Source: Bullera alba
Taxonomy: Eukaryota > Basidiomycota > Tremellomycetes > Tremellales > Bulleraceae
Direction: 5' to 3'
Assembly (NCBI GenBank): GCA_001600095.1
Contig: BCIX01000001.1
Span: 5,791,198 to 5,855,197 of the forward strand
DNA: 64,000 nucleotides
The stretch's first letter is position 1. The number at the start of each line of letters is the position of its first letter. The translations under genes and the position numbers were made by a program. The notes under the pieces are model-generated. The model was not told the origin of the DNA. It did no database searches and saw only the letters and a program-made list of their open reading frames with translations. Below are positions 1-46,592 of the stretch, in pieces.

Positions 1-43
1 GCTGCAGAGAAGGGCGATCGGTACTGCAACTACGGACGGGAGC

Positions 44-3000
44 ATGGGCACAGACACAACCTCGATGTCGACTGTGGAGCACAGCGGAGCGGATTTGGCC
101 CGAACCATGTCCGACTTGTCCAGCGGGGACAACAAGTCCGACGATGGGGGAACATACACTACCGAACTCACCAGCTCCCATGGACAACGCTTGAATTCGA
201 AACGGACTCGATCGGCAGCCCCATTGATCCCATCTACTGCCGGAACGATGACCGACATGACAAGCGAGAGCGGCTACACAGCCACAACGCAGTCGTCCGC
301 CCCTCGACGTGGAATGAGTCGCGGGAGCTACGGCATGACCGAGATCAGTGGCGAAATGACTGTGCCAGATGGCAAGACGACGTGGGGCGATGGAGGCGCG
401 TTGAAGGAGGTCAGCGAAGGAGGGAGTGGCGAACCAGAGTACGATCTCGCAGAGGAGGATAGTCCTTATCCAGAAGTACGAGCTTCGGTCTCGAATATCG
501 ATGACCCGGAGATGCCGGGTGAGTCAATCATGTGCGGAAATCGTGTATGGCCGCTGAACAGACTATAGCTCTGACTCTACGAGCGTTTATGCTCGGCATC
601 TTCTTCACTGTTCTGAGTTCCGGCATCAACACCTTCTTCCACTTCCGGAATCCGGCACCATACATCTCGCCCTTCATGATTCAGATTGTCGTCTATCCCG
701 TCGGCAAAGCGCTTGCTTGGATTATGCCCATTCGATCCTGGTACCTCCCCTCTTGGTTGGGCAGTTACGAGTTGACTTTCAACCCCGGTCCTTTCAACAT
801 CAAGGAACATACCTGTATCGTGGTCATGGCCAACGCAGCCATCGCGCCGACTTACGCGCTGTATCCCATCGTCTCCGCCGAACTGTGGTACAAGCACGAT
901 TTCGGAATTGGTTTCAACCTGCTCTACACCCTCTCCTGCCAGATCACCGGATTCTCGTTCGCGGGACTGTGTCGTCGGTTCGTCATCTGGCCAGCATCGA
1001 TGATTTGGCCAGGAATTCTCGTCGTCGCTACCAATCTCAACACTTTGCACGCCGAAGATGAGAGTTTCCAAGGTGGAATGACACGATTCAGGTTTCTCAT
1101 GATCACGGGTGGAGCGGCATTTGCATGGTACTTCCTTCCAGGTAAGTGGCGAATCCGGTAGAGAATCAGAGGAACAAACATTAAGGGTCATCTCGTCTAG
1201 GCTTCCTGTTCACAGCGTTGTCGTACTTCTCATTCGCGTGCTGGATCGCTCCTCGTAACAACATCGTCAATCAGCTCTTTGGTGTCTCGACGGGGTTGGG
1301 TATGGGTTTGATCACATTTGACTGGAGTCAGATCAATTGGATCGGGTCTCCCCTTACCGCACCTTGGTGGGCTCAGGTCAACATTGCTATCGGCTTCCTC
1401 CTGTTTTACTGGATTGTCACCCCGATTCTGTACTACTGCAACGTAAGTGAACTCCGCCTCAAATGGAGGTCAACTGATCGATTTGCTCCAGGTCTGGTAT
1501 ACTGCTCATTTGCCTATCAACGTGGTTCAAGCCGCAGATAGGTTTGGCTCGGCATACGATATATTCCAGATCCTCACGCCCGAGATCGATCTCAACACGA
1601 CGGCATATGCTCTGTACTCTCCCATCTATCTGTCGGCGACATTCAGCATGACTTTCATGCTGGCGTTTGCACTGGCGACGGGGCTGATCGTCCACACTGC
1701 ACTACACCACGGGCCAAGAATATACCGAGCGATCCTCAACGTCAGAACCGAGGCCGACGACATTCACATGAAGCTCATGCGGCAATACGCCGAAGTTCCC
1801 GATTGGTGGTACGCTGCTCTCTTCCTCGTGTGTTTCACCTTTGCCGTTGTGGCAATCGAGGTGTACGACACTGGTCTGCCAGTCTGGGGATACTTGGTGG
1901 CCATCTTGTTGTCCTTGATCTACTTCATTCCCGCGGCATTCATCTACGCGATGACCAGTCAGCTCATCGCCATCAACTTGATGGCCGAGTTGATCCCGGG
2001 ATTCATATTCAAAGGTCGGCCTATCCCCGGAATGGTGAGTTGACCGGCTGCGATGTACTGCCACTTGCGCTAATGTCTGCTGCCCGCTAGATTGCCAAGA
2101 GTTTCTCCGTCCAGACCCTCACAGAAGGCCTAGTCTTTGTTCAAGACCAGAAATTGGGTCATTACATGAAGATTCCCCCGCGATCACTGTTCATCGCTCA
2201 GTTGTCCGCCACGGCAATTTGCTCGTTCGTTCAAATCGGAGTCAAAAAGCTGCTCTTCGCCGTCGTCGATGACATGTGCAGCTATAAGCAGAAGGATCTA
2301 CTCATGTGTGCCAACACAAAGGTCTTCTTCACCTCAAGTATCATCTGGTGAGTGTCAGATACCTGCACTTCCACGTGAGGCTGACCCGCACTAGGGGATT
2401 GATCGGGCCATCACGCTTGTTCTCGAAAGGAGCCATGTACTACCCGCAAGTCTGGGCTGCACTCGGCGGCGCTCTGCTACCGATACCGCTCTGGCTGTGG
2501 ATGCGAAAGTACCCGCGGTCAGTATTGCGAAACGTCAATGTGCCGGTCATCTTCAACGGTGGAAACGCCATGCCTCCCGCCAACGGTGTCAACTATTCGT
2601 CCTTCCTCATTGTCGGATTCATCTTCCAGTTTTGGATCCGACGGAGACACTTTGCTTGGTGGTCAAAGGTGAGCGCGAGGACAGACAGTTGGTGTCATGT
2701 GGACCAAGCTGACACACTCGCAGTACAACTATGTCCTTTCGGCCGCTTTGGACGTGGGCACCGCGTTGTCAGCATTATTCATCTTCCTCGTGTTGCGTTT
2801 GCCCGGTGCGAACATCAGCTGGTGGGGGAACACCGTCTACACAGCGAGTGAGTGCATGCGGAGGCCGGAGACGGCGTGTCCATCGATCCCCGGCGGTCGA
2901 TCGCTGACATTTTCCGATAGCCGCCGATTGGGGAGGCGTGGGCGCTACTTACAAAGACACTCCCGTCACAGGCTTCGGTCCAGACACATGGCCGATCTAG
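44..3000 (+). CDS. Oligopeptide transporter, OPT family
   Basis: This is a multi-pass membrane protein that would import small peptides (typically 3-12 residues) with protons across the plasma membrane. A long Ser/Thr/Gly-rich cytosolic N-terminus leads to the acidic segment EEDSPYPEVRASVSNIDDP, which is typical just before the first helix. The family's NPG motif appears as FNPGPFNIKEH near 780-810. Many hydrophobic helices follow and the protein ends at a TAG at 2998-3000. About seven short introns interrupt it; the first runs from 519 to the TATAG acceptor near 568. The frame is open upstream to the window edge, so the true start may lie left of position 44. It points the same way as the secreted peptide precursor 2 kb downstream. 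In Cryptococcus an OPT protein (Opt1) imports the secreted peptide Qsp1, so a peptide-signalling role is possible but inferred. The family call is secure. Confidence 0.93.
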
Positions 3001-4150: not shown

Positions 4151-4841
4151 GCACCAAGCGGCACGAAGCCACAAACATGAGAGAACAATGAGGATGTCAT
4201 CGTGACTGTGTGACGGGACGTTTAGAAGATCAGTCAAGTTAAGCAGTACCAGGGGGAACATCCGGCTCTGTTTATAACCTAGCCGCGGTAAAAGCAAGCC
4301 GGCCGAAGAGCGCGTCAGAAGCACAAGCCCAAAAGCCAAAGTAAAATCAATCTACGCTATGCAACCAAGGGGGGGTTTAGAAGGAAAATGATGTAAAGGC
4401 GCTTTTGACCGAGCACGGGGAGCTCCACGAGTCCACCCAAGCTTAAAGGATCTAACGGCCAAAGGGGGGAGCACGCACTCTCTTGCGCCCCGATCCTACG
4501 CCCTGCGCCTCCCTGCCGGTCCCTCAATCATCTCGGACATTTGATCCTTGCTGTCACAAACGCCCCTCGCACCTCCCCTGTTTGTGATTCGATTGGAGGG
4601 CTCAGGGTAAACCTCCATCCATCACCCGGTCCCGCCGGCGCACACCTCCTTCCCCCACCCACCTGTGGATCTTTGCTTTATCGTTGCCTCGTTGCAGCGT
4701 ATAGGTAAGTATACTCCGCTGCTGGCCTCGTGTGTCTCACCTCCAACATCCTCTGGGCAGACGGCAACTCTAAATACCATTCAAACCGCTCGACAAAGAG
4801 CCCTCGTCACCAACTCGCACCCGTCGATCCCCCCCAGCCGC

Positions 4842-4852
4842 TATATATAAAG
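4842..4852 (+). promoter_or_regulatory. TATA box of the peptide precursor gene
   Basis: The string TATATATAAAG lies 113-123 bases upstream of the ATG at 4965 and is followed by a C/T-rich leader. Canonical TATA boxes are rare in front of fungal housekeeping genes and common in strongly regulated ones. The position would put the transcription start at about 4875-4890, which is inferred. Confidence 0.65.
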
Positions 4853-4964
4853 CACCGACACGTCCCCGGTCGTCATCTTCCACCCACCCCACCAATCCCA
4901 CTAGTCTCCACTGGTTCACCTTTCACCACTACACCCTTCGGTCTTCGCACCGACACCTCCCAAG

Positions 4965-5948
4965 ATGAAGGTCCTCTCCCTCCTCTTCGCCGCCGTTGCC
5001 GCTACTACCGCCTTTGCCGCTCCTATCGCTGAGCCAGCTACTACCACTGCTCCCTCCGGCCAGTGCTTCGGAAGATCATGTAAGTTTCGGTTCAATGACA
5101 TCAATCACCTGTGTTGCGCCTCCCGCTGATCTATCCCTACAGGCGGCGGCGCTCCTCCCTGGAAGCGAGAGGCTGAGGCCGCTCCAGTTGCCCAGACCAC
5201 TGCCCCCACTGGTCAATGCTTCGGCAGATCTTGTAAGTGGTCCTTTCAACACGACGACTCGCATGCATAGCTGACAATCATCTAGGCGGCGGTGCTCCTC
5301 CTTGGAAGCGAGAGGCCGAGCCAGTTCCAGAGGCTCAGACTACCGCTCCCACTGGCCAATGCTTCGGTCGATCATGCGGAGGTGCTCCCCCTTGGAAGAG
5401 GGAGGCTGAGGCTGAGCCAGTCCCCGAGGCTCAGACCACTGCCCCAACTGGTCAATGCTTCGGTCGATCTTGTGGTGGTGCTCCCCCTTGGAAGAGAGAG
5501 GCTGAGGCTGCCCCAGAGGCCCAGACNNNNNNNNNNNNNNNNNNNNNNNNNNNNNNNNNNNNNNNNNNNNNNNNNNNNNNNNNNNNNNNNNNNNNNNNNN
5601 NNNNNNNNNNNNNNNNNNNNNNNNNNAAGAGAGAGGCTGAGGCTGCCCCAGAGGCCCAGACCACTGCCCCAACTGGTCAATGCTTCGGTCGATCTTGTGG
5701 TGGTGCTCCCCCTTGGAAGAGGGAGGCCGAGGCCGCCCCCGAGGCTCAGACCACTGCTCCCACCGGACAGTGCTTTGGCCGATCGTGTGGTGGTGCTCCC
5801 CCCTGGAAGCGAGAGGCCGAGGCCGTCCCAGAGCCCCAAACCACTGCCCCAACTGGCCAGTGCTTCGGCAGGTCCTGTGAGTAACCCCTCGTACCCTTGG
5901 CAAACTCATTACTGACATCAATTAGGCGGTGGTGCTCCACCTTGGTAA
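4965..5948 (+). CDS. Secreted multi-copy peptide precursor (Kex2-processed, alpha-factor/Qsp1-like)
   Basis: A signal peptide (MKVLSLLFAAVAATTAFA) is followed by tandem units of about 30 residues. Each carries the conserved core TTAPTGQCFGRSCGGAPPW, then KR and a spacer such as EAEAAPEAQ. Seven cores are visible and at least one more must lie in the 100-N gap at 5527-5626. The last unit stops directly after PPW. Exons are 4965-5079, 5143-5232, 5286-5876 and 5926-5948. All three introns are phase 1 and split the codon of the second core cysteine. If the gap is real in size the protein is 272 residues. KR is a Kex2 site, the X-Ala/X-Pro spacers suit a Ste13-type dipeptidyl peptidase, and a Kex1-type carboxypeptidase would expose the terminal Trp. 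The core shares F-G, G-G-A and terminal P-W with Cryptococcus Qsp1. It would act as a secreted signal. The family assignment is inferred; the precursor architecture is read directly. Confidence 0.92.
5143..5876 (+). repeat. 90-bp tandem coding repeats of the peptide precursor
   Basis: Units of 90 bases (96 in the copy with the longer spacer) encode one peptide plus one Kex2/Ste13 spacer. Exon 2 is exactly one unit. Copies near the gap are almost identical in DNA, which suggests recent duplication or gene conversion. The first copy (in exon 1) is the most divergent, with Ser instead of Thr before Gly-Gln-Cys. Confidence 0.9.
5527..5626. other. Assembly gap of exactly 100 N inside the repeat array
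   Basis: Flanking sequence is in register with the repeats. Joining them by whole units requires 55 + 90n bases, so 100 is not a permitted repeat length. The gap is therefore a placeholder and the copy number is unknown. The reading frame survives only because 100 and 55 leave the same remainder on division by three. Confidence 0.95.
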
Positions 5949-6549
5949 ACAACTGGTGATACCAATATCGGCTTGGTAATTTCGGCTCGTCGTCGCGTCA
6001 ATTGAACTGCCAACCAATGTAGTCAAGACACCAATTCCAATCACGACCGACCGGAGTATCAACCTTTCGATCCCGTTTCACCTGTCCTGTATACCTCGCA
6101 CATAGATACGCACTCGCTCTTCTTGGACTCTCCGACCTACTTCCCACCCCCTCGCCACCTCTTAATATGCCCAAGCCCTTTCCCCTTCCTCCCTTTCTAT
6201 CGGCACGAACGCTGGCTCGTACTGCTTTTTTCTCTTTCATGTTCTCCTGGACCCAACGAAACTACGAAACAACAAACGTCTTGCTATGTGACTACGACTG
6301 GGGATGTGGAATGACGACAATTTCCGAAGGTGTGAATACAGACAGGGTTCGATCGTAAACTATCTTGTATATACTTCTTCTATCATGCACATAACGTCGA
6401 GTCAGATTTGGTTACACAATGATGAGGCCGACGTGCGACATGGTGATCACGATCCGCTTACAGCAAAGAATATATACATCTGGGCAACGAGCGGGTAACA
6501 TGCGATCGTATGATTGACGCTCTCGTGTTTCTAGTTGTACAGCGCCTCT
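5949..6549. other. Intergenic, convergent 3' regions
   Basis: This holds the 3' untranslated region of the peptide precursor and the downstream end of the Zn2Cys6 regulator. It has several T-rich and C/T-rich runs. No supported coding sequence was seen. Confidence 0.5.
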
Positions 6550-9376
6550 TCAATGCCCCCAATCGTACAAGAATTGCTTGTTGGGTTGATGGGTGTTTGA
6601 TGGTGCGGTATCTTGAGATGTAGAATACGTGACCCCACCACTGAACGCGCCAGAGGCTGTGCCCAAAAAGTCAAAGGCGCCATTGAGGCCTACTCCATCT
6701 GCCGCTCCCGTCCCGGTGAAGTTGTACCCAGATCCGGTTCCAGTCCCGCTGCTGCTCCCATACCCACCGATTTCGTAGCCAGTACCGTGCCCATTACCGT
6801 GACCACCAGCCACATCTCCATATCCAGGTTGCTGATAGCCAAACGCCGAATTATCGTATGGATAGGCCCCATACTCGAATGAGCTGGTCGTGCCAGCCTG
6901 GTTGCTGTGGTCTTGATTCTGCGGCACCGAAGGCGCTGGGTCTGTTGATCCGAGGCTGAATGGCCAATCTAGGAACAGACTATCCGGCAACTGAAACTGC
7001 TGTGACGGGCTGACATTGCGAGATGGAACCCAATCGCCAAGATTGAATGGCGGCAGCGATGCCGATGATGGCGAGGGTGGGTAGCCCGCCAAAGGCGCCG
7101 GCAAAGCATTTGCAGCGTAGGCTGAGTGATTGCTCGACACGGTTGGACCAGGTCCAAACCCACGACGGTCTTTGGCCTCGCTCTCCATCGATGCTATGAC
7201 TGTGCCACCGTGGGATACAGCTCTGAGGGCCGCTTCCGTCATATAATTGTCGATTCGGGAGACATGGGCCCTGATCTTGTTGGCAATGTCCATAGTGGCG
7301 GATTTGAGCGCGACCTCGAGTACCGACAGGAAATCTGCCAGATTGAGCAGGACAGTCCTCACCCGGACGTAGTCGTGCTGTGACAGAGGAGATTGGATGA
7401 CAGATCCGAGCAGGTGGCCGACACCCGCCAGGTGGTGTATCTAAACACAAATGTTAGCAAGCCATGACTCGGCGTGGACCTGGTACACTAACCATTGGAG
7501 CCGAAGTCGCCTGAATGTAGCAAATCGGGATGGTACTGAGAGCGTTCAGAGTTTCTGCTGCGATCGTGCTCCGCTGATGTACGTCGGCTTCCTCCGTTCC
7601 TGTCACCACCATTCGCAGTGTTTGCATCGTGATGATGATGTTGGCGGCTGTAATTTGGCAAGGGATTAGTCTTGTAGTTGGAGAGCCACGCCCATATTGC
7701 TCACCGATGAAGCCATGACTATCTCTCTGGAAATCGCCATTCATCTCGCTGACATACTTAAACTCCCTGGGCAAGGCTTCATAAAGGCCAGAAACGTGAT
7801 CGAGCACTGCTCCCGGATCAGGCCCCGATTTGCTGGTATAGACACTGGTTACGATCTCGTGGGATTCATGACCCAATGCGCCGTGTCGTTTCATGCGTAA
7901 TCGATCCGTGGCGTGTTCCAAGATTCTGTAAAGATCGGTGACAAAGTTCCACCCGCGGAACTGGGCCATAGGCGGACTCGCCGAAGATGGTGATAGCGAA
8001 TTGCGAGGGTGAACCGAGGGAGCAGCGGGTCGGTAGCCGTGTACCGTGATTTGCGATTCGTCTATGACCTCGGTTGGGTACTGAACGTGTATCTGGGCTT
8101 CTCTATGTCTGATCATTCCGCCCCAAGTGACGGTCACGTAGACGTCAATCTGGTATACCTGCCAGCACTGAGGTACAGATGATCAGCAATGATCTTGCTT
8201 GGAGTCATTACTCAACAGCTCACCAAGCGGCGCCGTTCCTCCACTTCGATCGCATTCAAGCCATGAGGCCATCTCGCTTCATTGTAAAACCCCTCACTGG
8301 CGTTGATGGTGATGACATCGCCTAGATGGCACAAACTCTCCTTGATCCTTCCGTACTGAATGCACAGCATCGCCATGACTGTCTTTGCTCTGCGATATTC
8401 GAAATCCGTTGCCTGTAGCGTATCCACTGGGAGGGCGTGTAATGCCGCCTGATAAAAGCTTTCCGAGGGGGGATACGATCTGTGGTCTGAGGTAGGAGGA
8501 GGAGGCCGCAGTCGTGGATCCATGCCGAGATTGTGATGATCCTGGGGGTATGGGTAGGAAGACGAGGACGTAGGTCGGGACGACTTCTTCGGTAGACGCG
8601 CTCCATCACGCAGTCTGGCGGTGAACATGGCGCAGACGGCCATGACGGTGCAGTAGAACGGTCTATCACGGAGATAACGACGGCGCCTTACGTCCGCAGA
8701 GAAAGATGGCCAGTGATAGAATGATTGGCTAAGGGTTGGATGAGAACCATGATCACCCGCGTCGATCGATACTTGCAACTCACATTGGATAGACGATGAG
8801 GTGGTATCCTTCGACCAGCTCCTCGATAGCCTCTGGCGAAGCAATCTCCATCGCCTGCCAGTGATCTGTATCCTCTACTTTGGGCACCCTTGCCCGCTTC
8901 CTACTCGCAGAGCCCGGCTCGCCGGACTCCACAGCCCTTGTAGGAGCTCTCGGCTTGCTCGCGGGTATGTGCTCCAGCTTGACTTTCGAGCTACAGGCAT
9001 TTTGGTCCTCTTCCTCGTCGTCGCGATATCCAGAGTGAATTTTCGAAGTCCCACTAGATTCTCTCCCATGACTGGTGATCGATGCGCCCTTGTGATCTCG
9101 CCTATCCCCGTTTTCAGGCGGTTCGCCGCTGTTGCTGATAGAATCTTTGCGCGGAGGACCTCGCCTTTTGCGTGGTCTGTCGTATGTGCACTCCGAGCCG
9201 AACGATGCGCAGGGCATACACGTCGACGAGTCTTCCGAGGGCGCACATTTGATACCACCCTTGTGACATCGATCACAGGCTCGCGTTATTCTCCTCCGCT
9301 TCAGCGGCACCGGCAGGTGACCTGATGTCGAGGTCGATCCCGAGTTTGGCATCGAGCCTGAATGCCCTGTCAACAT
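6550..9376 (-). CDS. Zn2Cys6 fungal transcription factor
   Basis: The N-terminus carries a binuclear zinc cluster after the basic run LKRRRITRACDRC, with spacing C-x2-C-x6-C-x8-C-x2-C-x6-C. The basic linker RPRKRRGPPRK follows. The middle, across exons at roughly 8780-8220 and 8180-7710, is a fungal-specific regulatory domain (SFYQAALHALP, ECRR-like EVEERRRL, then WQVYQIDVYV). The C-terminus is long and rich in Gly, Tyr, Ser and Gln, as in activation regions, ending in QFLYDWGH at 6550. About four introns are present. It would bind DNA in the nucleus as a dimer. Targets are unknown. It is convergent with the peptide precursor, whose 3' end lies 600 bases away. The start at 9376 is the first Met in frame with the zinc cluster; an extra 5' exon cannot be excluded. 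Confidence 0.88.
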
Positions 9377-9836
9377 GTTGGCGCGTGTTTCGACACACAG
9401 GGATCAGACTCGTGATTCGGTGTGTGGCCAGGTAGCGAAAAAACGTTTGAGACGGACTGGTCGAGCAGCATAGCCTCGTTGAGCCATGCGAGGCCATCCA
9501 GTTGACCAGAGTTAACCTGTTCCGGCACTCGCTCCCGGTTGAAAACAGATCTCACTAATTCAGGGACAAGAGACAACTTCGTAATAGCGGGGTCAAATCA
9601 TTCGGAAATGGATCGTTGAATCGTTTCAGACCTAAATCTAATCAGGTCATGTTAGCCTAATACAGGGTGGCAAATGCTGTTAATCCAACTAGCTAATTAG
9701 TCAGTCCGTTTCGTAGTCGTGAAAAAGTTGGACAACGTTGCGCTCAACAGTCAACACTACTGTTACCTACTGCATCGCATTTACTGCTGTACATCGTCTG
9801 ATCGACAACCCCGACCCAGCGGCATGTCGTGTGGAA
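9377..9836. other. Divergent promoter region, Zn2Cys6 regulator / CTU2
   Basis: The genes on either side point away from each other, so this stretch should hold both promoters. It has AT-rich blocks near 9640-9720. A 68-codon minus-strand reading frame at 9370-9576 overlaps the regulator start in another frame; I do not support it as a gene. Confidence 0.5.
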
Positions 9837-11673
9837 ATGAGGTGGAAGGCAGGGATGGAGAGAAGGCGGAAAGCCTTATGCCCAGTAAGTGACACTGCTC
9901 ATGTCCTGCCCGTCTCGAGCTGACCGGGCTCATCAACTAGAGAAACGAGTTGTCAAACGGGTAGACAAGAAGACATGTCAAAAGTGCAAGGAGCTCAAGA
10001 GCATGTTCATCATCCGGTCCATGACTTTCTGCACGTAGGTCATCCTTCTCCCACTATTTCTGCGTTTAATTCTGACACTTGATTTAGTGGGTGCTTCGAA
10101 TTCCAAGTCATGTCGAGATTTACAAAACAGCTATACCCACCTCTACACCCGTGGGGCGATCTGCCAAAGGCGCACAACGCCAGGAACCTATACAGACCGA
10201 AGCGGCAGTCTGGCACGGTGCTGATTGCCATGTCGGGCGGAGCGGGCAGTATGGCCATGCTGGACATGCTCCATCGCGGGGGTTACATCGGGAGACAAGG
10301 GGAGGATACCAAATTCGCCGACAAAACGAAAGGCGAGAAGGATGTCGTGTGGGAGAACGGTGTTGTCGTCCATGTCGACTGTTCCTCAGTGGTAGAAGGT
10401 GAAGCTGGCAAGGTCCTCGACCTGGGTACGGGGGCCAACGCTGCGGATTTGAGGGACAGACGAGATTGGATAAGGAGCTTAGCTGAGGAGAGGGGACTCG
10501 GGTTTCTAGGATTGAAAGCTGAAGATGTCTTTGACCCAACACTGTCAAGTCGGTTGCGCGGTCGAGGTGGCCAAAGCGACATCGCAGGATTCAAGGTGGA
10601 CTTGAGTGATTCAGGTAAGCACGATACCCAAATGTCGAGTAGAAATCGCTCTGACTCATAGTTCAGGCCTGCCGATACTTCCGCAAGCATCATCGTCCAA
10701 AACGCCATTGGAGTCACTGCAGAGTCTACTGGCTTCAGTGCCTCATCCTTCCCGCCCTGCGCTTATGTCCCACATCCTCAATGCCCTCTTGACCGCTGTA
10801 TCGACGTATCTACCGAACATCTCTCATCTACTTATTGGCGAGACGTCCACACGGCAAGCCGAGCGAATCATCTCCGCCACTGCCTCTGGTCGGGGGTGGG
10901 CACTGCCCTTGGAGCTCGCAACGACATTGAAGCTGGATAATGGTGTCAAGAGGATTTCCCCGATGAAGGATCTCAGCTACAAAGAAGCCGCTTTTAGTTG
11001 TCGTATACGCCGGTTAGAAACGAGGAATTACCGAGGATGGGACAGGACCAAAGTCGGAGCGAGTAGTGATAAACGGGAAGCAAGAGGGAAAGGCGGGGCA
11101 ATGAGTATAGAGGGGCTGACCGAGCGTGAGTTCAAGTGGGCAATCGGGAGGGTAGGAAAGCTCATTCGTATGTGTCAGAATTCATCACGGTGCTCAGTGC
11201 CACACATCCTGCTACTGTATCTACGATAGGCAAAACCGGGGACAAACTCGTCTTTCCCGGAGGGCACACCGAGCAGAAAAAGCTCTGTCCGCTTTGTCAA
11301 ATGTGAGTGCAGTCGAACCCCCGACGTAGCGGCAGCTAATGAATCTCTTTCTAGGCCCGTTGACCCATCTGCCCTGGAGTGGAAATCACGGACAGGGCTC
11401 ACTGCTCTACCTGGCAAATTGAACCCGCCTACCGGCCTCGATCCTGATCGACCAACGGATCCAAGTCGGCCACAATCGCAGTCAACACACTCAAGCCAGC
11501 TCGCCCCTCTGCTATGCTATTCGTGTTTGGCGACACTGACACCGAGCAGCCACGCGAAGAAGGACCAGCTGGCGTTGAATGATGTAGAGTTGCCAATATG
11601 GGTAGGACGCCGAGTGGCCGTCGAGAGAGATCAGATGCGGAGTCAAGTAGCAGAATTCCTGCTAGAGGATTAG
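9837..11673 (+). CDS. NCS2: Cytoplasmic tRNA 2-thiolation protein 2
   Basis: Ctu2/Ncs2 pairs with Ctu1/Ncs6 to thiolate the wobble uridine of cytosolic Lys, Glu and Gln tRNAs, using sulfur from Urm1. The N-terminal Cys pairs read TCQKCKELKSMFIIRS then FCTGCFE. The PP-loop-like segment VLIAMSGGAGSMAMLDML follows, and a C-terminal zinc pair KKLCPLCQMPVDPSALEW is near 11275-11385. The protein ends SQVAEFLLED. Exons 9837-9884, 9943-10034, 10088-10614, 10667-11167, 11230-11302 and 11355-11673 join in frame to 519 residues, close to the usual family length. The start is uncertain: in-frame ATGs exist at 9738, 9837 and 9855. The identification rests on the whole motif order and is strong. Confidence 0.9.
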
Positions 11674-11785
11674 TCTAATCCAAGCATACTCATATCAGAT
11701 AACACTGCGTGCAGCGCTGTCCACATACACATGTAACACTTGCATCTAGTCTGTGCTGTATGCAGCCCATCTATCCGTTCTACTT

Positions 11786-12633
11786 TTATTGGCTCTTCTC
11801 TGAGCTTTTGGCCTGACTACCAGGCTTCAATGATGCTGGTGGAGGATTACTCAATAGCAGATGCCCCTCTCCCCATCCACCGGGTTGACCACCGATACGC
11901 CACCCTCCTACGCCTCCAACTCCCACCCAAAGCCACTCGATACCTCTCCGCAGCTTGCCCACAACACTGGTCGGGTGGTATAAGGGCATAAACTCGGTCA
12001 AGCTGAAGTGAATCAGACCGTATGCGACGCCGAACAGGTACCCCGCCACGATCTGGATGGGCGAGTGATAGAGCAGGTACCATCTGTATCAGCGACGTAT
12101 CAGTCACATTGCAGTGTGTAAGAATAAGGCACGTCAGCTCACCTCGAGTAAGCGGTGAGTAACGACCAAACGACCAGACCAACCAGGTAAGCGCCAGTGC
12201 GAGCCTTTCTGATTGGTTCAACTCCGGATATGCGTGGAGCAGTACTCATACTCATCCTCTTATCTTGAGTCAAGGCATAAGCTATTCCCCATGCCGCCAG
12301 ATATCCCGCCGCTTGGGAGTGACTACTGGGCATGCCGTATCCATGGCCAATGTGCTCGTGACCAAAGTACGGTCTCTGACCCTTCAGCACTCTCTTCAAG
12401 ACCCATGACAAGACCTCGTTGATCAATGACCCAGCAGCGAGGAAGAGGACCGTTAATTGCCGGTTGAAGACCAAGAGCGTGAAGTATGATACGAATAGGA
12501 ATATCGGCGAGAGGGATAGTAGGGTGAGTGGGATCGAGAGGTATTTCGGGTGTGAAGGGTTGTACAGGATATGCGTGAGTGAGAATGATTTGAGGTCGAG
12601 AGACATTGCAGCGTTGGGATCTAGGGAGCCCAT
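11786..12633 (-). CDS. CAX4: Dolichyl-diphosphate phosphatase (PAP2 family)
   Basis: This ER membrane enzyme removes a phosphate from dolichyl diphosphate left after N-glycan transfer, so dolichol can be reused. Hydrophobic helices flank the three phosphatase motifs: KRVLKGQRP, then GMPSSHSQ, then SRWYLLYHSPIQ. The last has Gln where many PAP2 enzymes have Asp, which is usual for this subfamily. Exon 1 is 12144-12633 in sense (12143 included in the splice codon) and exon 2 is 11786-12083. Together they encode 262 residues. An alternative Met lies 12 codons upstream at 12669. The Gly-rich C-terminal tail after GGVGGWRIGG looks lineage-specific. It is head-to-head with the enoyl-CoA hydratase gene. 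Confidence 0.9.
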
Positions 12634-13093
12634 TCTGCTTGAGATTCGTATCAATTCGGTTGTAGGCAAAGATGCCGGGGCGAAAGACAGCAGAAGTTAT
12701 TAGGCAGAGCTTGAGCGCTTGAGCAGAGCAGAGTCGGAGTCCGCCAGCAATGAGATGGTGTGGAGTCCCGTACGGAAGCAAAGCAGGGGCTCCGGCCTAA
12801 CCCGGCCAGGATGTCACGGGCATCGCCTATGACGGCCGTTTGTCTAGGCTTGTCAAGATATCCTCTTGTGAGGCCCATTCGTTCTGGGACCCCCTTTGAG
12901 CGTTCGAACTGACGGAACCAAAACCTGCAGCTAGGTTGGTCGGCTAACGACATGGCCGGTGCACATCCACAAGCAAGAGGTGGACGACACAGGCAAGACT
13001 TTGCTCTGTCTTGTGCTCGTGAACTACAACTCCTACAGTCTTCAACTTAGCTTGTCATCAGGTATTAAACGACTCCACACTGCCCTAGACACA
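12634..13093. other. Divergent promoter, CAX4 / enoyl-CoA hydratase
   Basis: The stretch carries the 5' regions of both flanking genes. The frame of the hydratase is open from 12959, but the Met at 13094 (context ACACAATG) aligns best with the family start. No other gene is seen. Confidence 0.5.
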
Positions 13094-14118
13094 ATGTCCA
13101 CTTCTTACACCAAGCTCTCCCGACCCCACCCGGCCGTCTGGCAGATCGACCTGACCGCACCCCCGGACAACCGGCTGACCCCGGACCTCCTCGCATCCCT
13201 CGCTGCAAACTTGGACACTGTCGAGGCAGAATGGCGAAAGTCTTCCGGAAAGAGGGATCAGCAAGGACCAATGTCCGACCCCAAGACGTTTGGCGAGCAT
13301 AAAGGTGCAGGGGCGCTCGTCCTCACGGGTTCAGGGAGGTTTTTCAGTAATGGTCTCGACTATGCCAAAGCCATGGCCAACCCGCGTTTCTTCGAGGGTG
13401 AGTGAGGAGGTCTATCGATTAGTGAGATGAATGCTGATAGTCTCATCCTTAGAGACGTACGATCCGGTCCTCTACAGACTTTTGACATTCCCCTTGTACA
13501 CTATCGCTGCGATCAACGGACATGGTGAGTCCGTTTCGAAGTTTCGGATGGTGGAAGCAGCGTTCTGACCTCTCTGTAGCCTATGCCGGTGGAATGGTCC
13601 TGGCTCTGGCTTGTGATCACAGGGTCATCACCTCCGGCAAAGGTCTGATGTGTATGAACGAGGTGAGCGAGACGTCGAGTAGAGGTTCATGCTCGAGCAC
13701 TTCTGACGATTTGCAGTTGGTCTTTGGTTCCCCTATACCCAACTCGTTCGGAGCCATACTACGACTCAGAATGCCATATGGAAATCACCTTCGGGACACG
13801 ATGCTGGCTAAACGGTGGACACAAAAGGATCTACTAGAGGCTCATCTGGTAGACCTCGTCGTTGAGCAAGATCAGGTTGTGTCCAAGGCCGTCGAGCTGG
13901 GTGTGTCGGAAGGTGCCAAAGTCGCTGGAGGGGCATGGGGCCAGATCAAGGTGTGTACCGTTTCGCGAAAAGAATCCAAAGAGAGGGCTGATCGCAAGTG
14001 ACAGGACACTATGTATCACGACATCATCGACGCATCAAGATCTAACAGACCGCTGTTGATGCCGATGCTCGAGGCAAAGGCCTTCTGGAAGCGAGTTGGC
14101 TCTCAGGCCAGGTTGTAA
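13094..14118 (+). CDS. Enoyl-CoA hydratase/isomerase family protein
   Basis: The crotonase fold is shown by GAGALVLTGSGRFFSNGLDYA (oxyanion-hole region), then AAINGHAYAGGMVLALACDHRV and NELVFGSPIPNSFGAILRLRM. The family acts on acyl-CoA in fatty-acid oxidation, as a hydratase or as a delta3-delta2-enoyl-CoA isomerase; the sequence here is closest in feel to the isomerase type. Exons 13094-13397, 13453-13524, 13580-13662, 13717-13950 and 14005-14118 join in frame to 268 residues, a normal length. The C-terminus is SQARL, where final ARL resembles a peroxisomal targeting signal type 1 (variant of SKL). Peroxisomal location is therefore likely. Substrate is inferred only. Confidence 0.85.
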
Positions 14119-17882: not shown

Positions 17883-20800
17883 CTACACTCTGAGCGACTC
17901 TGGAGGTCCGAGGTAACTGTAACCCCTATCATGAATACCTCCAAAGTCGATCCAGATCCTCTCCACCACCACACCGGTCGACATTCCCCACACGGTCAAG
18001 CTGTGCTTTCCGGCCTGCTCAAAGTCCACTGACAAGGTGACGTTTCTGACATCGCTCTCCACCACGCCGATCCAGTCGGGCGGCACGGCGCCGACAAAGA
18101 TTGGCTCCTGGCCCGGTCGAACTTCAACTCCACCGAGTCGGTCCGTGGTGATGGGTTGTATCTCTTTAGCTGGCTGATCGTCCAGCTGAACTCCGAAAGA
18201 GAGTTGTTTGCCGCTGATGAAATTGAGCGAAGGGCCGATCTGGACGTTGATCTCGGCCTTGCCAGAGTCGTGGGTCCAAAAGTCGTATGTCAGAGAAGGA
18301 CCTTGACCAACGGTGAAATTTTGGAAATCGGTAGGGAACATTTCCAATCCGCTGAACGTACGTCCATACCCCTCCATTTCCTCCCAGGCGTACCCCTCCG
18401 CAGAAGCATTGTGGCTGAAGTGCGCAGCTTCCATGACCACATACCCATCACCCTGGACGAAGCCATGGTAGTCATCGTCCACTGGCAGAGGGACAAAGAT
18501 TGGCGCGGAAACGGTGACATTAGCACCATCGGAACCTTGGATCAAAATGTGGCCGTCGTCGATCTGGCCCACAAGGTCGGAGGGAAGTTTGGACCAATCC
18601 ACGCTGACGAAGATTCGCTGATCGGTCGAACCGTCCCGTTTCACTCGACCCTTGCTCTCGGAGACCTTCAACCATGGCACGTTTGGCTTAGCTGTCCATC
18701 GGATATCCTTTGGTCCTCCTGCGGAAATATCGATCCACCTCGATTTCGCGCCGTACGGGTCCATGGTGTACAGGGTCGGGTCGGGGCATTTCATCCATTT
18801 GGGGCAGTTGTCCGCAGTTCTACCTGGCCACGCGCCATAGCTGTTTTCGACGGTCACTCGTGTGCTGAAAGCATAAGGAATATGCAGCTCTGGAACGGGA
18901 ATACCCATGAGGACCGGCTGGTGGGGGTTGATGAAGGAGACGGGCGCAAGGGTGTCCTTGTCTGGTTCGAGGGAGTCGAACCAGTTGATATGGGTTTGAT
19001 CCAGCATATGGTCCCATCGACCTCCGTTCAGCGAGTGGAAGACGTCGGTCAGCCTGGCATCGTTCTTGAACGCGTCGATGGCTTCGTGGGCGTAATAGTT
19101 GGCGGCGTTTCTTGATTGTCGAGAGTACAAGTTTGATCGGCCGACTGAGCAGCATGAGCTGATCAGTTGAACTCATCAAGTCAAGATGAGGAATTGACTC
19201 ACCCGCCGTGTGCAGCTTGTTGATGTTCGCCTGCATCTCGCACAACATCAAGACCGACTGGTAGAAAGCCGGTCGAGTCGCCTTCGGCAAGTGGTCATGA
19301 ACCTTCTTCGCCCGGATTGCCAATTGATTCCACTCGTGCTGGACCCGCTCAGCTCTGCGCCCAGGTGTCAGAGTCGTCAAAGTCTCGGGCAGCCCCCTTT
19401 CGGATCAAGACTCACTCGTTGTAATTGATGAGAGACCAGATAGTTGAGTTCAGTAGCTCAGGCTTGGACCTCGATGCATATCGCTGTTAAGGTATCAGTA
19501 ACCATCGCGTACCGGACAGCAGTTGACTCACGCCGTAGTGAACCATGATGTCCGCTACCTCCTTTTTCACTTCCTGGCCAAAGTCTCGCCCGGCCCATTC
19601 TTCCAAGAAATGTCTCACTGAGCTCCTTGGCCACGCATCAAAGTCGTATGCGAGGGACAAGAAGTGTTCGGTAGGCATCTCGAGTGGTTTGAGGGACCCG
19701 ACATTGACAATCCAGATTTGGTTGGTGTTGAACGATCGAGCGATGTTCATCTGCTCCCAGGCTGACCAAGTCGTTCAGTGTCGCTCTGGAGAGTGAGCAG
19801 AGTGTACTCACTTTTGGCCAGGTTGATTGTGTTGATCCATTTGTACGCTCTCGGGACGCCAACGTAGTCTACGTGATAGTAGATACCAGCTCCTGCGGGA
19901 TGCGGGTCCTCTTTGGAGTAGACAGACATGATGTTACCCCAGTTGTCATCGGAGAAGAGGATTGTGACTGGGTTGCGGGTCAGTACCGAACGCTTTCAAG
20001 GCAGTTGCTCTACACACTGTCATCGGGGATCTCAAGCTACGGTACTATTAGCATTTCTTCGCGGTGAGGCGAGGAGAGCCACTCACACCATCGACGTAGT
20101 AGTCCGCGACCTCTTTGTACATTGCCCACATCTTCGGAATGCTGGGCACGGCATCTGTGCCATACACCTCCTCGAGGATGTTCAGTTGCGCAGCGGTGAT
20201 ATCTGGTCATTATGAGCGCAGCTCCAAGTCTGGGACCATGTTCACTCACTCTCGACCAGACCGATACTGGCACCCGAAAGCGGCTCGTCACCATCACCTC
20301 TCATTCCCATGGTGAAGAGCACTTCTCGTCCTTTAGCCCGTTCAGCCCCGAACTTCCAGTGCTTAGTCAAGACATCCTTGTTGGTCCAGTCCCAAGGGCC
20401 GACCTTGACATGGTCCCACTCTGGCTTTGTCCTGTCCATGGGCTCGTGATGGCTGAGGCCCATGACGATACCCATGTCGTTGGCTAGGACTTGGTTGGGC
20501 CCTGGAATCGGCTCATCCGGTACTCCAGGCAATCCGTCAACGCCAAACATACTAATGTACACTGAGAAACTCAGCATCATTCTATACGATATACAGCGAC
20601 TGGAGGGTCGACTCACTCGCTGGCCAGTGATAGTTTGCCTTGAGCCTGAGCATCATCTCGAACCATGGGGCGTAGAAGTCGGTCTGGAAAGCGGCCTCCC
20701 ATGGCTGTCTCTTGAAGTACTCCTGAGCCCAGCCCCATAGCGCTGGATGCTCGTCGTTGATGAAGATACCTCTGTACTTTACAGTCGGTTCACCATGAGC

Positions 20801-25652: not shown

Positions 25653-28600
25653 ATGTCCCTCCATGAGCCTACTTTCCAGCAGCTCAAGGACATGGGCATC
25701 GACGCACCACTAGCCCGAGCAGCCGCCTTGCGATTCTCCACAACGGATGCGGCTGTCAATTGGTGCTTTGGCGAGGGACAAAGCGTGGGTCCATGAACTC
25801 TGAAGATTGTGCTTGTGCATAGCTGAATGGGATGCTTTAGTGGAAACCTGAGGATGACAGGGCTCCCCCTTTGTATAACAGCGGTCGGTCAAAGTGTGAA
25901 TCGAGCTTTGTCTAGTCTGAGCCATGGGAACTTGACTGAAAGTGCTCTAGCACCCGACGTAGGCCACAGCGGTGTCGATACAAGGTCGTCGCCTCCGCCA
26001 ACACCTTTGCGGCCTCGACCTCAGTCTCTAGTAGCCCCACCCCATCCTCTGCCACCAAGACCCCGGGCTTCTCCAACGAAATACGATGCGCCTCTCTACC
26101 CCCCTCCCGACCATCCTCCACATACGGCTTCTTCTCCAAGAGATCCATCGACGAGTATAGCCCCGTTCGCATCGAACAATCCATTCAATATCGCCTCAAA
26201 CTCGCAACACACCACGAGTGTCGGCCCTATGGCGATGGAAGATGATGAGAATGAGGAACTGCAGCGAGCCTTGGAAATGTCGACTGGTACCGCTCAGGAC
26301 GGGACAACAGAAGACGACGGCCAGAGACGGAATGAGAGGGAGAGGAGCGTCAGAGCTAGTGGAGTCCCCCCTCCAAGCCCCGATATGGACGAGGCTCAGG
26401 TGATGGGCACGCTATTCGGCCCAAGCGAAAAGGACGACAAGGACGGGAGCATGGCTATGGTTCCTGCCACGTTGACTTCAGCGCCTCAAGTGAGTAGTCT
26501 TCGCCGTAGAGGCGAGCGAACTCCCATTAGTATAATCCTACTGATCTGCCCCGCGCAGAACAACGAAGACGACGATCTGAACAGAGCGATAGCCGACTCC
26601 CTCATGACCGCAAGCTTCCACTCGGCTTCAGCGATCAAGGACGTCAATCGGCCAGTACCCACTCAGCGGGCCGAAGGAGCGTGAGTAGGCTGGTGATACG
26701 TCTACAGCACCCATGAATCTTGCTGATATGGGCGACCAGACCTCTTGTGCTCTACTCGCAATCAGGCAACTCGACATACGCTGCAGTGTATCTGCAAGCG
26801 ATACTGGCAATCCCTCAGGTCCGGGAAGCGATTCTATTGTCTGTTGACTCTCCCGCTCCCGATACATCGACCTATATGAGTAAGTCGGATCCTTTGAGTG
26901 AGATCGTAGCGCTGAGCGAATTTGACAGAAATGTCATACCTGCAAGAATTGGCGGAGAGGATGACGCGGGAGGACAAGAGCTTCGAGGAAGTTGACCAGA
27001 CCCTCAAGGAGCTCAGAGATGGCAACGAGCCAGCCCAGCTCCCCCCGGCAGATGTAACAAATGGTGCGTGGTAGTAATCGTACTGACATCAGCTGGGATT
27101 CACGTGCTGATACAACCCATTTCCGACTCCAGACTTTCAACACCGTATGATAGGATTGCTGGATATCATCATTTCCGTTACCAAGGATAATCCGCTCTTC
27201 GACCGAACAAAAGCTACCCAGGACTACTGGTCGGATCCGAGCTCGTGAGTAACGACACAACACCCACTGTATTGGATACTGGCTGATCCACCCGGTATAG
27301 ACTATTTGCTTCGCGCATCATCATGGATGTAGAACAAAGCTCGACATTCGTCCACTTTGCCCGGGGCATCAAGAGCCCCCGGGATCTGTACACCGGTCTT
27401 GCGGACATTTTGTGGTCGTACCACAGTCCAAACTCGATAATCGACACCGCATCGGATGTGCTCACCGTCAAACTGCTTTGGGACCGCAATGCGGACAGAG
27501 AATTGTGGAGGATAGACGAGACGATATACTTAGGTGCGTATCGCTGCATTTATATTGCCAAGGACATTGCGATATTGATACGTCTGGTCAGACCGCTTCA
27601 TGCGAGAGAACGCCGCGACGTCGGCGCAGATACGAGCACAGCAAGCTGTCGCTCAGGGCAATGTCCGGCGCTTGAAGAGCAAAATCGACAGTCTTACCAT
27701 GCACGGAGTAAGTGGGCTGCTCGCTGCACGCCAATGTAACATCGTTGACCCGCCAACAGGGTCAGGATATACTGCAGAGTCTGTCGGCGTGAGTGTCACC
27801 AGGTTCAAGCTACTTTGGTGTCGAGCTGACTTTGTGAATAGACTTGTCGAGCACTATGAGACGAGTCCCAAGCTATCGGACGAGTTTAGACAGCAGAACA
27901 AGTCTGAACTGAAGCAGAAGGTGGGTGTCGACTGTAAAGCGAAGGGTGCCGCTGACCCTGGATAGCTCGTGGATACACTGGGACAGATAAAGACACTGAA
28001 GGCATCTTTGGACGAAGAGTTGGACAGAGAGGCAAAAGCAGCTGGCACGGCCGCATTCGACACTGAAGATCCGGCCTTCCAACGATACAAGGTGAGTTCA
28101 AACCGCCCCGCTGATGACCTATCGGCACATCTTCGCTGACATGTCCACAGTACACGCTGCGATCAGTCCTGTGCCACGATGGCTCTCTGGTCGCCGGTCA
28201 CCACATCTACGCTTACATCAGAGGCGACCACGGATCATGGTGGAGGATACAAGAACACGAGGCGACAAAGGTCAGTTCTCACTTGAATAAGTTTATTCCA
28301 GAGACATTATTGACACTTGCTAGGTCGAGTTCGAGACCATCGTCACTGATCGGACCGGATTGTTCATGGACGGAGGGCCTTATTACCTGTGAGTATATGG
28401 AGGGACTGTGTCAAGCCGATTCATTAGTTGTCGCGCCGAGCTGATTCCGATTCAGGATGTACTCTCGTGATGGTCCTAGACCAGCTTTCGAGCCTCGAGT
28501 CGATGCACAGGCTCCACCACAAGGTATCGACACCGATCTCTTGTCACACACCCCGGTCGACACGGTGCAAACCCAGGATGAACCAATGCAACCGGAGTCA

Positions 28601-28783
28601 ACAGGGACGAGCACGAACAAGCCCGCTTCATCAGAACCCGTTGTGGGCAAGGTGGCGACCGACGCCGAAGGGGCAGTAAGCGAGCCCCAGAGCGACAAAC
28701 TCGACAACCTCGACGGCGAACAAGTGGATGAGGTGAAGGTGAAGTCGGACACCCCAGCGGATATGGACATCAAGATCGGGTGA
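25653..28783 (+). CDS. USP25/28-type ubiquitin protease homologue, catalytic Cys replaced
   Basis: The protein starts with a UBA domain (FQQLKDMGIDAPLARAAALRF), then a Pro-rich stretch and two ubiquitin-interacting motifs, EELQRALEMS near 26255 and DLNRAIADSLM near 26575. This order is that of USP25/USP28 and yeast Ubp2. The Cys box, however, reads SGNSTYAAVYLQ at 26762-26797: Thr (codon 26774-26776) sits where GNTCY has the nucleophile. The His box is kept (HDGSLVAGHHIYAYI near 28180-28215), but the following Asn/Asp site reads RIQEHEATK. Between them runs a long helical insert. The C-terminus is acidic and disordered. It probably binds ubiquitin without cleaving it, perhaps as a scaffold. 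The family call is good; loss of activity is inferred. Confidence 0.82.
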
Positions 28784-29597
28784 GAATTGAGAGCAGTCCG
28801 AAGCCTGTCCCTGAAGGTCCTCTACCACAATCAGATGCGAAGGTCCGGATCAGGGCGGGATGTCGGTCCATGTGGGTCGTTGCAACAGGTTGCAACCGAG
28901 CCATGCCCACGGACTCGTCCTTGAAAGCAGTGTTTCATGCTATTGCTGTCCGTCGTTAGATGCTGTAGAATGCTGTCACACTCTAGGCAATGTTCTGCCA
29001 TAGTTGTCGCCCCAGTCATATTGTACCGATTGCCATAGAGTGACATGTACCATGCTTCGCTGCAACCTTGTATAATAGCCTCTGGATTTGTGAAAGGATG
29101 CGAGAATGCTTGCTCGTGTGACCAAGTCCCCAACCACTGTGATTGGGCGGGGAGTAGTTCTAATCAAACTCGGCGTGGGGACCCCGGCTCGTAATGATTC
29201 AGGGCAGCTATTACATCCAGGTCCGGGTGGCGGCTAATGCCTGCTAATAGCTGCTAATGCGCCTTTCTCGGCAGCTAAAAGCTGTTCCTTAAGCTTACTC
29301 TGGCTTATCGCTCCGGTGCGCGATTATGAGCTTTCTCCTCACTGTCAGCCCTCGAGCCCTCTAGTGGGCAAGGGGGGTCCCATCCAATTTCAATCACAAC
29401 CGCTGCACTCCCTGGCAGCCAGTGAACAATGGCCAAACTGGACTGGCGATACTCTGAGTAGGGTCCTGTTCGACTCCCGAAAGTTCACCTTCACTCCTAC
29501 CTTTCACTTCTCTTGGTGCAGCTAAAAATCACTCAACGATAAACGTGCGCCGAGCGGATCTGGGTATCCATCGCCATCACTGGAGATAGGCCATACG
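28784..29597. other. Intergenic region upstream of MYND gene
   Basis: About 800 bases with no supported gene. The left part is the 3' region of the USP-like gene. Three GCTAAT boxes spaced exactly 10 bases apart lie at 29233-29258, 340 bases before the next start codon. Confidence 0.5.
29233..29258. promoter_or_regulatory. Three GCTAAT boxes at 10-bp spacing
   Basis: GCTAAT occurs at 29233, 29243 and 29253, within TGCTAATR contexts, so equal faces of the helix are presented. A related GCTAAA follows at 29273. A transcription-factor binding array for the downstream gene is a reasonable but untested reading. Confidence 0.4.
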
Positions 29598-45328: not shown

Positions 45329-46592
45329 CTATTTCCTCCCGACTGGGCTCTTACTCCTGCTGGCCATGCTGACACTTCGGACGCTTCTGGTCCTACTTCG
45401 GCTTCTGCTCCTGGAGACACTTCTCGACAAGCTTCGCTTCCCTGCTGGGCCGCCTCGCCTCACTGGGCTCCTGCTCCTGCTCCTACTTCTGCTCACACTC
45501 CTCGAGTATGACCTTTTCCTGCTTCGACTCCTGCTTCTGCTGGAGTATGGACTCGGCGACCTTCTTCTCGCTCCGTTTCCTGGACCACCCCGTCTCGGCG
45601 GCGACCTTGATCGAGAGTATGATCGTGGTCGAGGTCTGTAGTTTCCTCCTCCCCCTGCCGCACCGCCTCGTGGGCCACCTTGACCACCATATCCTCCTCT
45701 TCCGCCGTATCCGCCATGTCCACCTCTGCCACCGTCGTTGTAGCCGCCATAACCGCCTCGACCGCCTCGACCGCCACCTCCCCCGCGAGGGACATAGGAG
45801 TCTCGGCCACCTGGCGGTCCTCTGTATCCCCTCGGAGGGGAGGGTGATCGGCGTCTGAATCCACCAGGTCCGCCTCTTCGAGGCGATCTGGATCTCGAGC
45901 GGGAGTACGAAGGTGATCGCCTGCGTCGAGGAGGGGAGATCGATCGGCTCAATGAGCGAGAGTAGGAACGGGGTCGTCGAGCTATCGGCGCTGGAGCAGG
46001 CGAAGGGGCTTTTGGCGGAGGCAATGGATGTTCAGAGATCTGAAGAAGCGGTCAGTATTGGGACGATCCAGTGATCAGAGCAGGGATTGGTAAACTTACT
46101 TGAACTGTGAGGAATGCTCCATCAAGCTGACCTCCGTCCATATGTTTGACGGCTTTCGAAGCGAGATCGGGGGCTGCGAATTCGATGGCCGCTTTACCTC
46201 TATTCAATCCAGCTACAGAGTCCCATGTATCAGCACACACCTTGTTGGTGCGAAGCCGACGTAGACACTTTCTCGCACTCACAGACTTTGAACAGAGGCA
46301 TGTCAATGGCGGTAATCCTTCCATACACCCCAAAGATCTCTTCTAGATGGCCCTTGTGCACGTTCTTGGTCAGTCCACTGACGACGACGACCTTGAATCC
46401 TTCTTCTTTGATCCCATCGCCGTTGCGTTTGGGCGAGACTGTTCTCGACCGAGACCTGGAGCGAGAACGAGAACGAGAGCGGCTAACGGAACGAGTTCGG
46501 GAGCGTGACATGGACACGTCCCGCGCGTTGCCGCTGGCTCCTCTCGCGGGTGACAGTGGCTTTGGTGATCTGGATCTTCCTCGTTCCGACAT
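45329..46592 (-). CDS. RNPS1-like SR splicing protein
   Basis: One RNA recognition motif sits between two Arg/Ser domains. The N-terminal part is SRSRTRSVSRSRSRSRSRS. The RRM starts FKVVVVSGLTKNVHKGHLEEIFGVYGRI (RNP2 region) and continues NRGKAAIEFAAPDLASKAVKHMDGGQLDG (RNP1 region). The C-terminal half alternates RS repeats with a Gly/Tyr-rich stretch. This is the layout of RNPS1, an auxiliary factor of the exon-junction complex that stimulates splicing and nonsense-mediated decay. Two introns split the RRM. The start at 46592 gives MSERGRSRSPK. A high intron load in this genome makes such a factor expected. Confidence 0.85.

Follow-up and report, generated by a model that had tools for sequence, protein, structure and literature searches.

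A tandem Kex2-repeat peptide precursor of Bullera alba at a likely counterpart of the Cryptococcus QSP1 locus

The precursor gene and its repeat array

A stretch of 64,000 nucleotides from the basidiomycete Bullera alba (assembly GCA_001600095.1, contig BCIX01000001.1, forward-strand positions 5,791,198 to 5,855,197; called the window below, with all positions counted from its first letter) carries a gene for a tandemly repeated, putatively secreted peptide precursor. Directly upstream of it, on the same strand, lies a gene of an OPT oligopeptide transporter. The fungus Cryptococcus imports its peptide signal Qsp1, and the precursor locus described here is probably, if by no means certainly, the counterpart of the QSP1 locus in another basidiomycete, encoding a secreted autocrine signal of the population-density type in the form of a tandem Kex2-repeat precursor.

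The coding region opens with the ATG at 4965 and closes with the TAA at 5946-5948 of the plus strand. Three introns of 63, 53 and 49 nt interrupt it, all with GT-AG borders and each with a CTGAY branch motif, and splicing leaves a single open frame that spans 273 codon positions with the stop included. The same four exons were returned by a simple codon/splice-site gene finder fed only with the region 4700-6300 of the plus strand; this finder is judged to be a rough tool because it ended prematurely in the neighbouring OPT gene. The precursor consists of the predicted signal peptide MKVLSLLFAAVAATTAFA, a short lead and then seven readable copies of the core GQCFGRSCGGAPPW, with Lys-Arg (KR) sites and acidic Ala/Pro spacers between them. 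Seven Lys-Arg sites are present, the final copy ending in Trp and a stop instead. A preliminary description of this DNA, made from its letters, had proposed a tandem secreted precursor at exactly these coordinates, and the cores, the KR sites, the Trp-stop end and the X-Ala/X-Pro spacers detailed below bear it out, with the signal peptide judged by inspection. The elements of the gene are as follows.

4965-5948, plus strand: precursor gene, four exons (4965-5079, 5143-5232, 5286-5876, 5926-5948)
4844-4851, plus strand: candidate TATA box TATATAAA, about 115 bp 5' of the precursor ATG, function presumed
4965-5018, plus strand: predicted signal peptide, judged by inspection from its basic start, a hydrophobic stretch and A-F-A ahead of AP
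5058-5162, plus strand: core copy 1, with intron 1 (5080-5142) inside the codon of its second Cys
5211-5305, plus strand: core copy 2, with intron 2 (5233-5285) inside the same codon as in copy 1
5354-5395, plus strand: core copy 3, intronless
5450-5491, plus strand: core copy 4, intronless
5527-5626, no strand: gap of 100 N in the array, with the same repeat unit on both flanks
5675-5716, plus strand: first core copy past the gap, intronless
5765-5806, plus strand: second core copy past the gap, intronless
5855-5945, plus strand: last core copy, with intron 3 (5877-5925) again inside this codon, Trp followed by the stop

The run of N, exactly 100 bases long, is the only one in the window. Because both of its flanks belong to the same repeat unit, assembly probably failed within the repeat, and the core is present in at least seven copies and probably in eight or more, with one or more of them probably hidden by the gap. 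The introns of the first two copies and of the final one stand at an identical position, inside the second Cys codon between T and GC, and the other four readable copies are unsplit. In pairwise alignments of the three introns, between 31 and 38 columns out of 60 to 69, gaps included, are identical. The restriction of introns to one codon of the outer copies suggests that an intronless unit, derived from an old intron-bearing one, was amplified in the middle of an intron-bearing array.

The candidate TATA box occurs once in the window when both strands are counted, on the strand of the precursor; at least one occurrence anywhere was found in 18 of 100 shuffled sequences. Among open frames of at least 60 amino acids in 84 kb (the window and 20 kb upstream), a scan for repeats between dibasic sites returned two, the precursor and a frame at 45332. 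The latter (45332-46051, minus strand) repeats SYSRS between dibasic sites. Pfam matches of the peptide exon were set aside as effects of composition: DUF2694 reached 23.4 bits against a cut-off of 22, DUF5637 and DUF569 stayed below cut-off, and no stretch passed on its own. Compared with PDB, the peptide exon gave no match.

Conservation of the core and the register of the spacers

Among the seven readable copies 12 of the 42 nucleotide sites of the core vary, and all of these changes are synonymous. Taken over the 21 pairs of copies, there are 139 synonymous and 0 non-synonymous differences, an outcome of about 5e-8 if sites were independent; as the copies share descent and may exchange sequence, this figure is a guide rather than an exact probability. 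As read from the DNA, the core is thus conserved at the protein level among the readable copies.

The seven spacers follow a different rule. They are 8 or 10 residues long, the single difference in length being exactly one dipeptide, and Ala or Pro occupies 29 of 29 second (even) positions versus 4 of 29 first (odd) positions. The amino acids of the spacers vary between copies, yet the second residue of each pair stays Ala or Pro. An unbroken X-Ala/X-Pro register of this kind is the pattern expected under trimming by a dipeptidyl aminopeptidase of Ste13 type. Cleavage by Kex2 followed by such trimming as far as Gln-Thr is predicted to give the 20-residue peptide QTTAPTGQCFGRSCGGAPPW. Each readable copy should yield this product apart from copy 1, which has a different lead (ATTTAPSG...). 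As a correction to the preliminary description, the dipeptide register predicts a first product of 20 residues and not the 12-residue core.

The genome holds candidates for both enzymes: a Kex2-type P_proprotein domain was found at one place (two exon matches; E 5.9e-15) and a DPPIV_N domain likewise at one place (two exon matches). With these features the gene would be classed as a Kex2-processed repeat protein (KEP) bearing a Ste13 signature. Genome-wide motif searches added no further array. CFGRSC has eight matches, seven in the precursor, and the remaining one (L001, C1:5753942) was rejected because its open frame holds it once and shows no repeats. KR-EAEA has ten, seven of them in the precursor, compared with four for the reversed control; the other three (L023, L024, L032) were rejected on the same grounds, each being single in its frame.

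Neighbouring genes

The precursor stands between a transporter gene and a putative regulatory gene, and the order along the window is OPT, peptide, transcription factor, an unassigned region of open reading frames and PAP2.

1-2890, plus strand: 3' part of the OPT oligopeptide transporter gene, whose start lies some 826 bp upstream of the window; the end of the last exon is approximate
6550-9403, minus strand: Zn(II)2Cys6 transcription factor gene (PF00172, E 1.8e-05, and a gene model), the next downstream neighbour of the precursor
11789-12696, minus strand: PAP2 gene (PF01569, E 2.4e-06), a candidate dolichyldiphosphatase with the motif YGMPSSHSQ; exon ends approximate

The assembled OPT protein has at least 1121 residues, with a long N-terminal extension and a complete OPT domain that spans residues 450-1101 (E 2.2e-182, profile positions 2-622 of 623); its splice sites were picked by hand from candidates and the end of the final exon is uncertain. 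Between OPT and the precursor there is a single open reading frame of at least 150 amino acids, and its coding score is negative. In this genome of 19.4 Mb at least 53 exon matches to OPT fall at no fewer than 12 places. Another contig, C4, carries three of these 12 places in its first 140 kb (near 11000-13500, 27000-29200 and 135700-138300).

The PAP2 gene is about 6 kb from the precursor. The family gave seven exon matches at six places in the genome, and YGMPSSHSQ, which we take to be a dolichyldiphosphatase motif although no tool gave the gene that name, was seen only in the gene of the window; in the stretch examined, the places L043 and L044 had no PS[GSA]H motif at all. The chance of such neighbours was estimated at 0.3% for a random gene to have an OPT neighbour and at 0.08% for a given single-copy gene to fall within 8 kb, rough values which assume 7,000 genes and independence. 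Farther along the window, at 17886-19172 on the minus strand, there is a C-terminal domain of glycosyl hydrolase family 115.

Comparison with the QSP1 locus of Cryptococcus neoformans

In C. neoformans the QSP1 (CQS1) gene is CNAG_03012 (PMC6687208, PMC8561399), and OPT1, whose product is required for the import of Qsp1 into cells, is CNAG_03013 (PMC8092252); the two are neighbours on chromosome 3 (PMC2848560, PMC3618354). CNAG_03014 has been named as a dolichyldiphosphatase gene (PMC9765290), and its gene number would place it beside OPT1. The third published neighbour is the tyrosinase CNAG_03009 (PMC12167027). When the window is compared with these published gene numbers, candidates for two of the three neighbours are found within about 14 kb, OPT adjoining the precursor and PAP2 some 6 kb off. 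The locus is therefore likely to be the counterpart of QSP1, with a position that agrees in part.

At the level of the peptide, the best alignment of Qsp1 (NFGAPGGAYPW) with the 20-residue product has F-G, G-G-A and P-W in common and in the same order. The pattern GGAxPW gave 16 matches in the genome, seven in the precursor and nine elsewhere, versus seven for the reversed control. No separate GGAYPW site was found in a single exon of the genome, x never being Tyr in the nine other matches, though such a search would overlook one interrupted by an intron.

Several observations weigh against the proposed correspondence. A peptide of 20 residues, perhaps closed by a disulfide, would be a large cargo for an OPT transporter. 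The likeness of the two peptides is modest: the score of the alignment was matched by 1,265 of 200,000 shuffled 20-residue peptides (0.6%), and by 9,445 of 200,000 (4.7%) when the terminal PW was kept. The Pfam match of the PAP2 gene is barely above its cut-off (27.8 versus 27.2 bits), and its exon had no match in NCBIfam or PDB, no tool calling it a dolichyldiphosphatase. A tyrosinase corresponding to CNAG_03009 was not found in a genome search that lacked a positive control, and the local gene order differs from the consecutive CNAG_03012, 03013 and 03014. Finally, the maturation described for Qsp1 is extracellular and due to the serine protease Pqp1, in an account whose accessible part makes no mention of a Kex2 array (PMC7537855).

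From the shuffle frequencies it follows that the peptide sequence alone would not carry the claim of a relation to Qsp1, and it is the neighbourhood that carries the case. The preliminary description had seen in the gene a relative or analogue of Qsp1 with Cys residues and many copies; the adjoining OPT gene and PAP2 at about 6 kb speak for it, and the likeness of sequence, at the frequencies just given, lends it little. The comparison of synteny which it had proposed turned out largely favourable to it, two of the three neighbours having candidates, with the tyrosinase missing from a search run without a positive control and the order changed.

Proposed mechanism and rival explanations

Secretion, cleavage, disulfide formation, import and signalling are all proposed here from the letters of the gene and its surroundings. 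The signal peptide would direct the precursor to the secretory pathway, where Kex2 would cleave after each Lys-Arg and a carboxypeptidase would take off Lys-Arg, so that all products would end in Trp; the last copy, with Trp already terminal, would need no such removal. A dipeptidyl aminopeptidase of Ste13 type would then remove the EA, EP, AP, VP and VA pairs and halt at Gln-Thr, leaving QTTAPTGQCFGRSCGGAPPW, possibly with a disulfide between its two Cys. The released peptide may be trimmed further, as Pqp1 does with Qsp1. It would probably be re-imported by the adjacent OPT transporter and would act inside the cell on a transcription programme. For C. neoformans, expression of mature Qsp1 in the cytosol rescues the mutant, from which intracellular action was inferred by the authors (PMC7537855).

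The surface pheromone receptors of basidiomycetes are of the STE3 type, the receptor class for farnesylated peptides. No match to the STE2 family was found in the genome by a search without a positive control; for STE3, four exon matches were obtained, which fall at two places on contigs other than that of the precursor. The lack of an STE2 match together with the presence of STE3 thus fits a basidiomycete, and leaves import through the neighbouring OPT as the simplest route. These results bear directly on the decidedly unlikely alternative that the product is a pheromone or hormone resembling alpha-factor that a G-protein-coupled receptor of the cell surface would perceive, the OPT gene being a neighbour by coincidence. 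The design of the precursor, with its KR sites, EA/EP/AP spacers and C-terminal Trp, is that of the ascomycete alpha pheromones, and precursors of this design occur in basidiomycetes, among them that of the Trichosporon oleaginosus peptide QSWGGCGGRGTPCW, for which sensing by such receptors has been speculated (PMC6339444). The receptor searches do not favour this explanation, and it leaves the linkage to OPT and PAP2 unexplained. The OPT linkage would be equally unexplained if the peptide were a non-signalling defence or structural product (antimicrobial, repellent-like or of the cell wall), an improbable reading to which we give rather little weight. Some Kex2-repeat proteins do yield structural or toxic products, and many are without a known role (PMC6339444, PMC7329392), but reportedly neither the structural Rep1 nor the precursors of toxic cyclic tetrapeptides carry Ste13-type signatures (PMC6339444), and the core, rich in Gly and Pro with one Arg, is not cationic-amphipathic.

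It is very improbable that the gene encodes the precursor of a cyclised ribosomal peptide of dikaritin type, modified by oxidases of the UstYa family. The core has no Tyr, a residue usually needed by such products. No match to the UstYa family (PF11807; DUF3328) was obtained in a genome-wide search without a positive control, nor was one seen among 40 stretches around the precursor scanned with Pfam, shorter open reading frames lying outside that scan; the resemblance lies in the substrate of the pathway, which consists of cores 8 to 14 residues long that stand in tandem and are cut by Kex2 (PMC7329392). The last explanation, unlikely but deserving to be kept in mind, accepts the neighbourhood and denies the descent: a Kex2-repeat signal of independent origin would have replaced the ancestral QSP1 or been inserted beside it. 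The weak similarity between core and Qsp1 and the different route of maturation fit such an origin, while the common order of F-G, G-G-A and P-W, the similar neighbourhood and the missing separate single-exon GGAYPW site in the genome argue against it. The counterpart of the QSP1 locus, encoding an imported signal, is the reading that we prefer.

If this reading is true, a tandem precursor of Kex2 and Ste13 type with an adjoining importer at the QSP1 locus would join the literature on Qsp1 with that on Kex2, and would give a direct prediction of how imported peptide signals arise. It would also offer a simple rule by which further basidiomycetes could be searched for peptide signals, namely to look for Kex2-repeat genes next to an OPT gene, and would suggest a function for those KEPs of basidiomycetes that bear Ste13 signatures and are described as being of unknown role (PMC6339444). 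No literature joining Qsp1 and Kex2 was found, most subscription papers being beyond the search, so that an earlier description is possible; under the same limit the string GGAPPW was met in one citrus paper only. Relatives of the peptide were sought in viral and in bacterial and archaeal DNA collections, where tblastn confirmed none among 99 and 592 pattern-matching stretches respectively, a result that is silent on other fungi.

Comparison with known systems

A survey of Kex2-processed repeat proteins across fungi reports examples from basidiomycetes in which the Ste13 signature is clear (Le Marquer et al. 2019, PMC6339444). Sites in the style of alpha-factor are thus not new by themselves in a basidiomycete, a further point on which the preliminary description is corrected. 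Tremellomycetes have on average 1.00 KEP per strain, and KEP type P-7 is common to Talaromyces and Cryptococcus (PMC7329392); the accessible text of neither survey (PMC6339444, PMC7329392) mentions Qsp1. The peptide QSWGGCGGRGTPCW of T. oleaginosus was singled out and compared with the alpha pheromones of Sordariomycetes (PMC6339444). Like the present one, it is a repeated peptide of a basidiomycete yeast with N-terminal Gln, C-terminal Trp, two Cys, Gly-Gly and Ste13-type dipeptides after KR (PMC6339444). Kinship between the two was considered and set aside as unsupported, the score of the alignment to QTTAPTGQCFGRSCGGAPPW being reached by 6,707 of 100,000 shuffles, which is not significant. 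The alignment of QSWGGCGGRGTPCW with Qsp1 is not significant either (17,843 of 100,000 shuffles).

The precursors of ascomycete alpha pheromones (MFalpha1, Ppg1, Ccg-4) share with the present one the signal peptide, the tandem peptides, the KR sites and the X-Ala/X-Pro spacers, and in some cases two Cys and a terminal Trp. They differ in that their cores have no clear relation to this one (raw scores of 11 and 21 against two such peptides), in that no STE2 match was obtained here by the search without a positive control, and in the linkage to OPT.

Qsp1 has in common with the B. alba peptide F-G followed by G-G-A and a terminal P-W, an OPT transporter next to the gene and a dolichyldiphosphatase, here a candidate, nearby. 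In contrast, Qsp1 has 11 residues without Cys and is matured outside the cell by Pqp1, whereas here there are at least seven copies with two Cys per core and sites of Kex2 and Ste13 type. It is tentatively suggested, with the balance leaning slightly to the other side, that Qsp1 is a reduced descendant or a sister of a tandem precursor in the style of alpha-factor, and that the peptide gene with its adjacent OPT forms an old linked ligand-importer module of basidiomycetes, in which the letters of the peptide diverge and the module stays. The logic of such a module would be comparable to that of the bacterial systems in which a peptide is exported, processed and re-imported.
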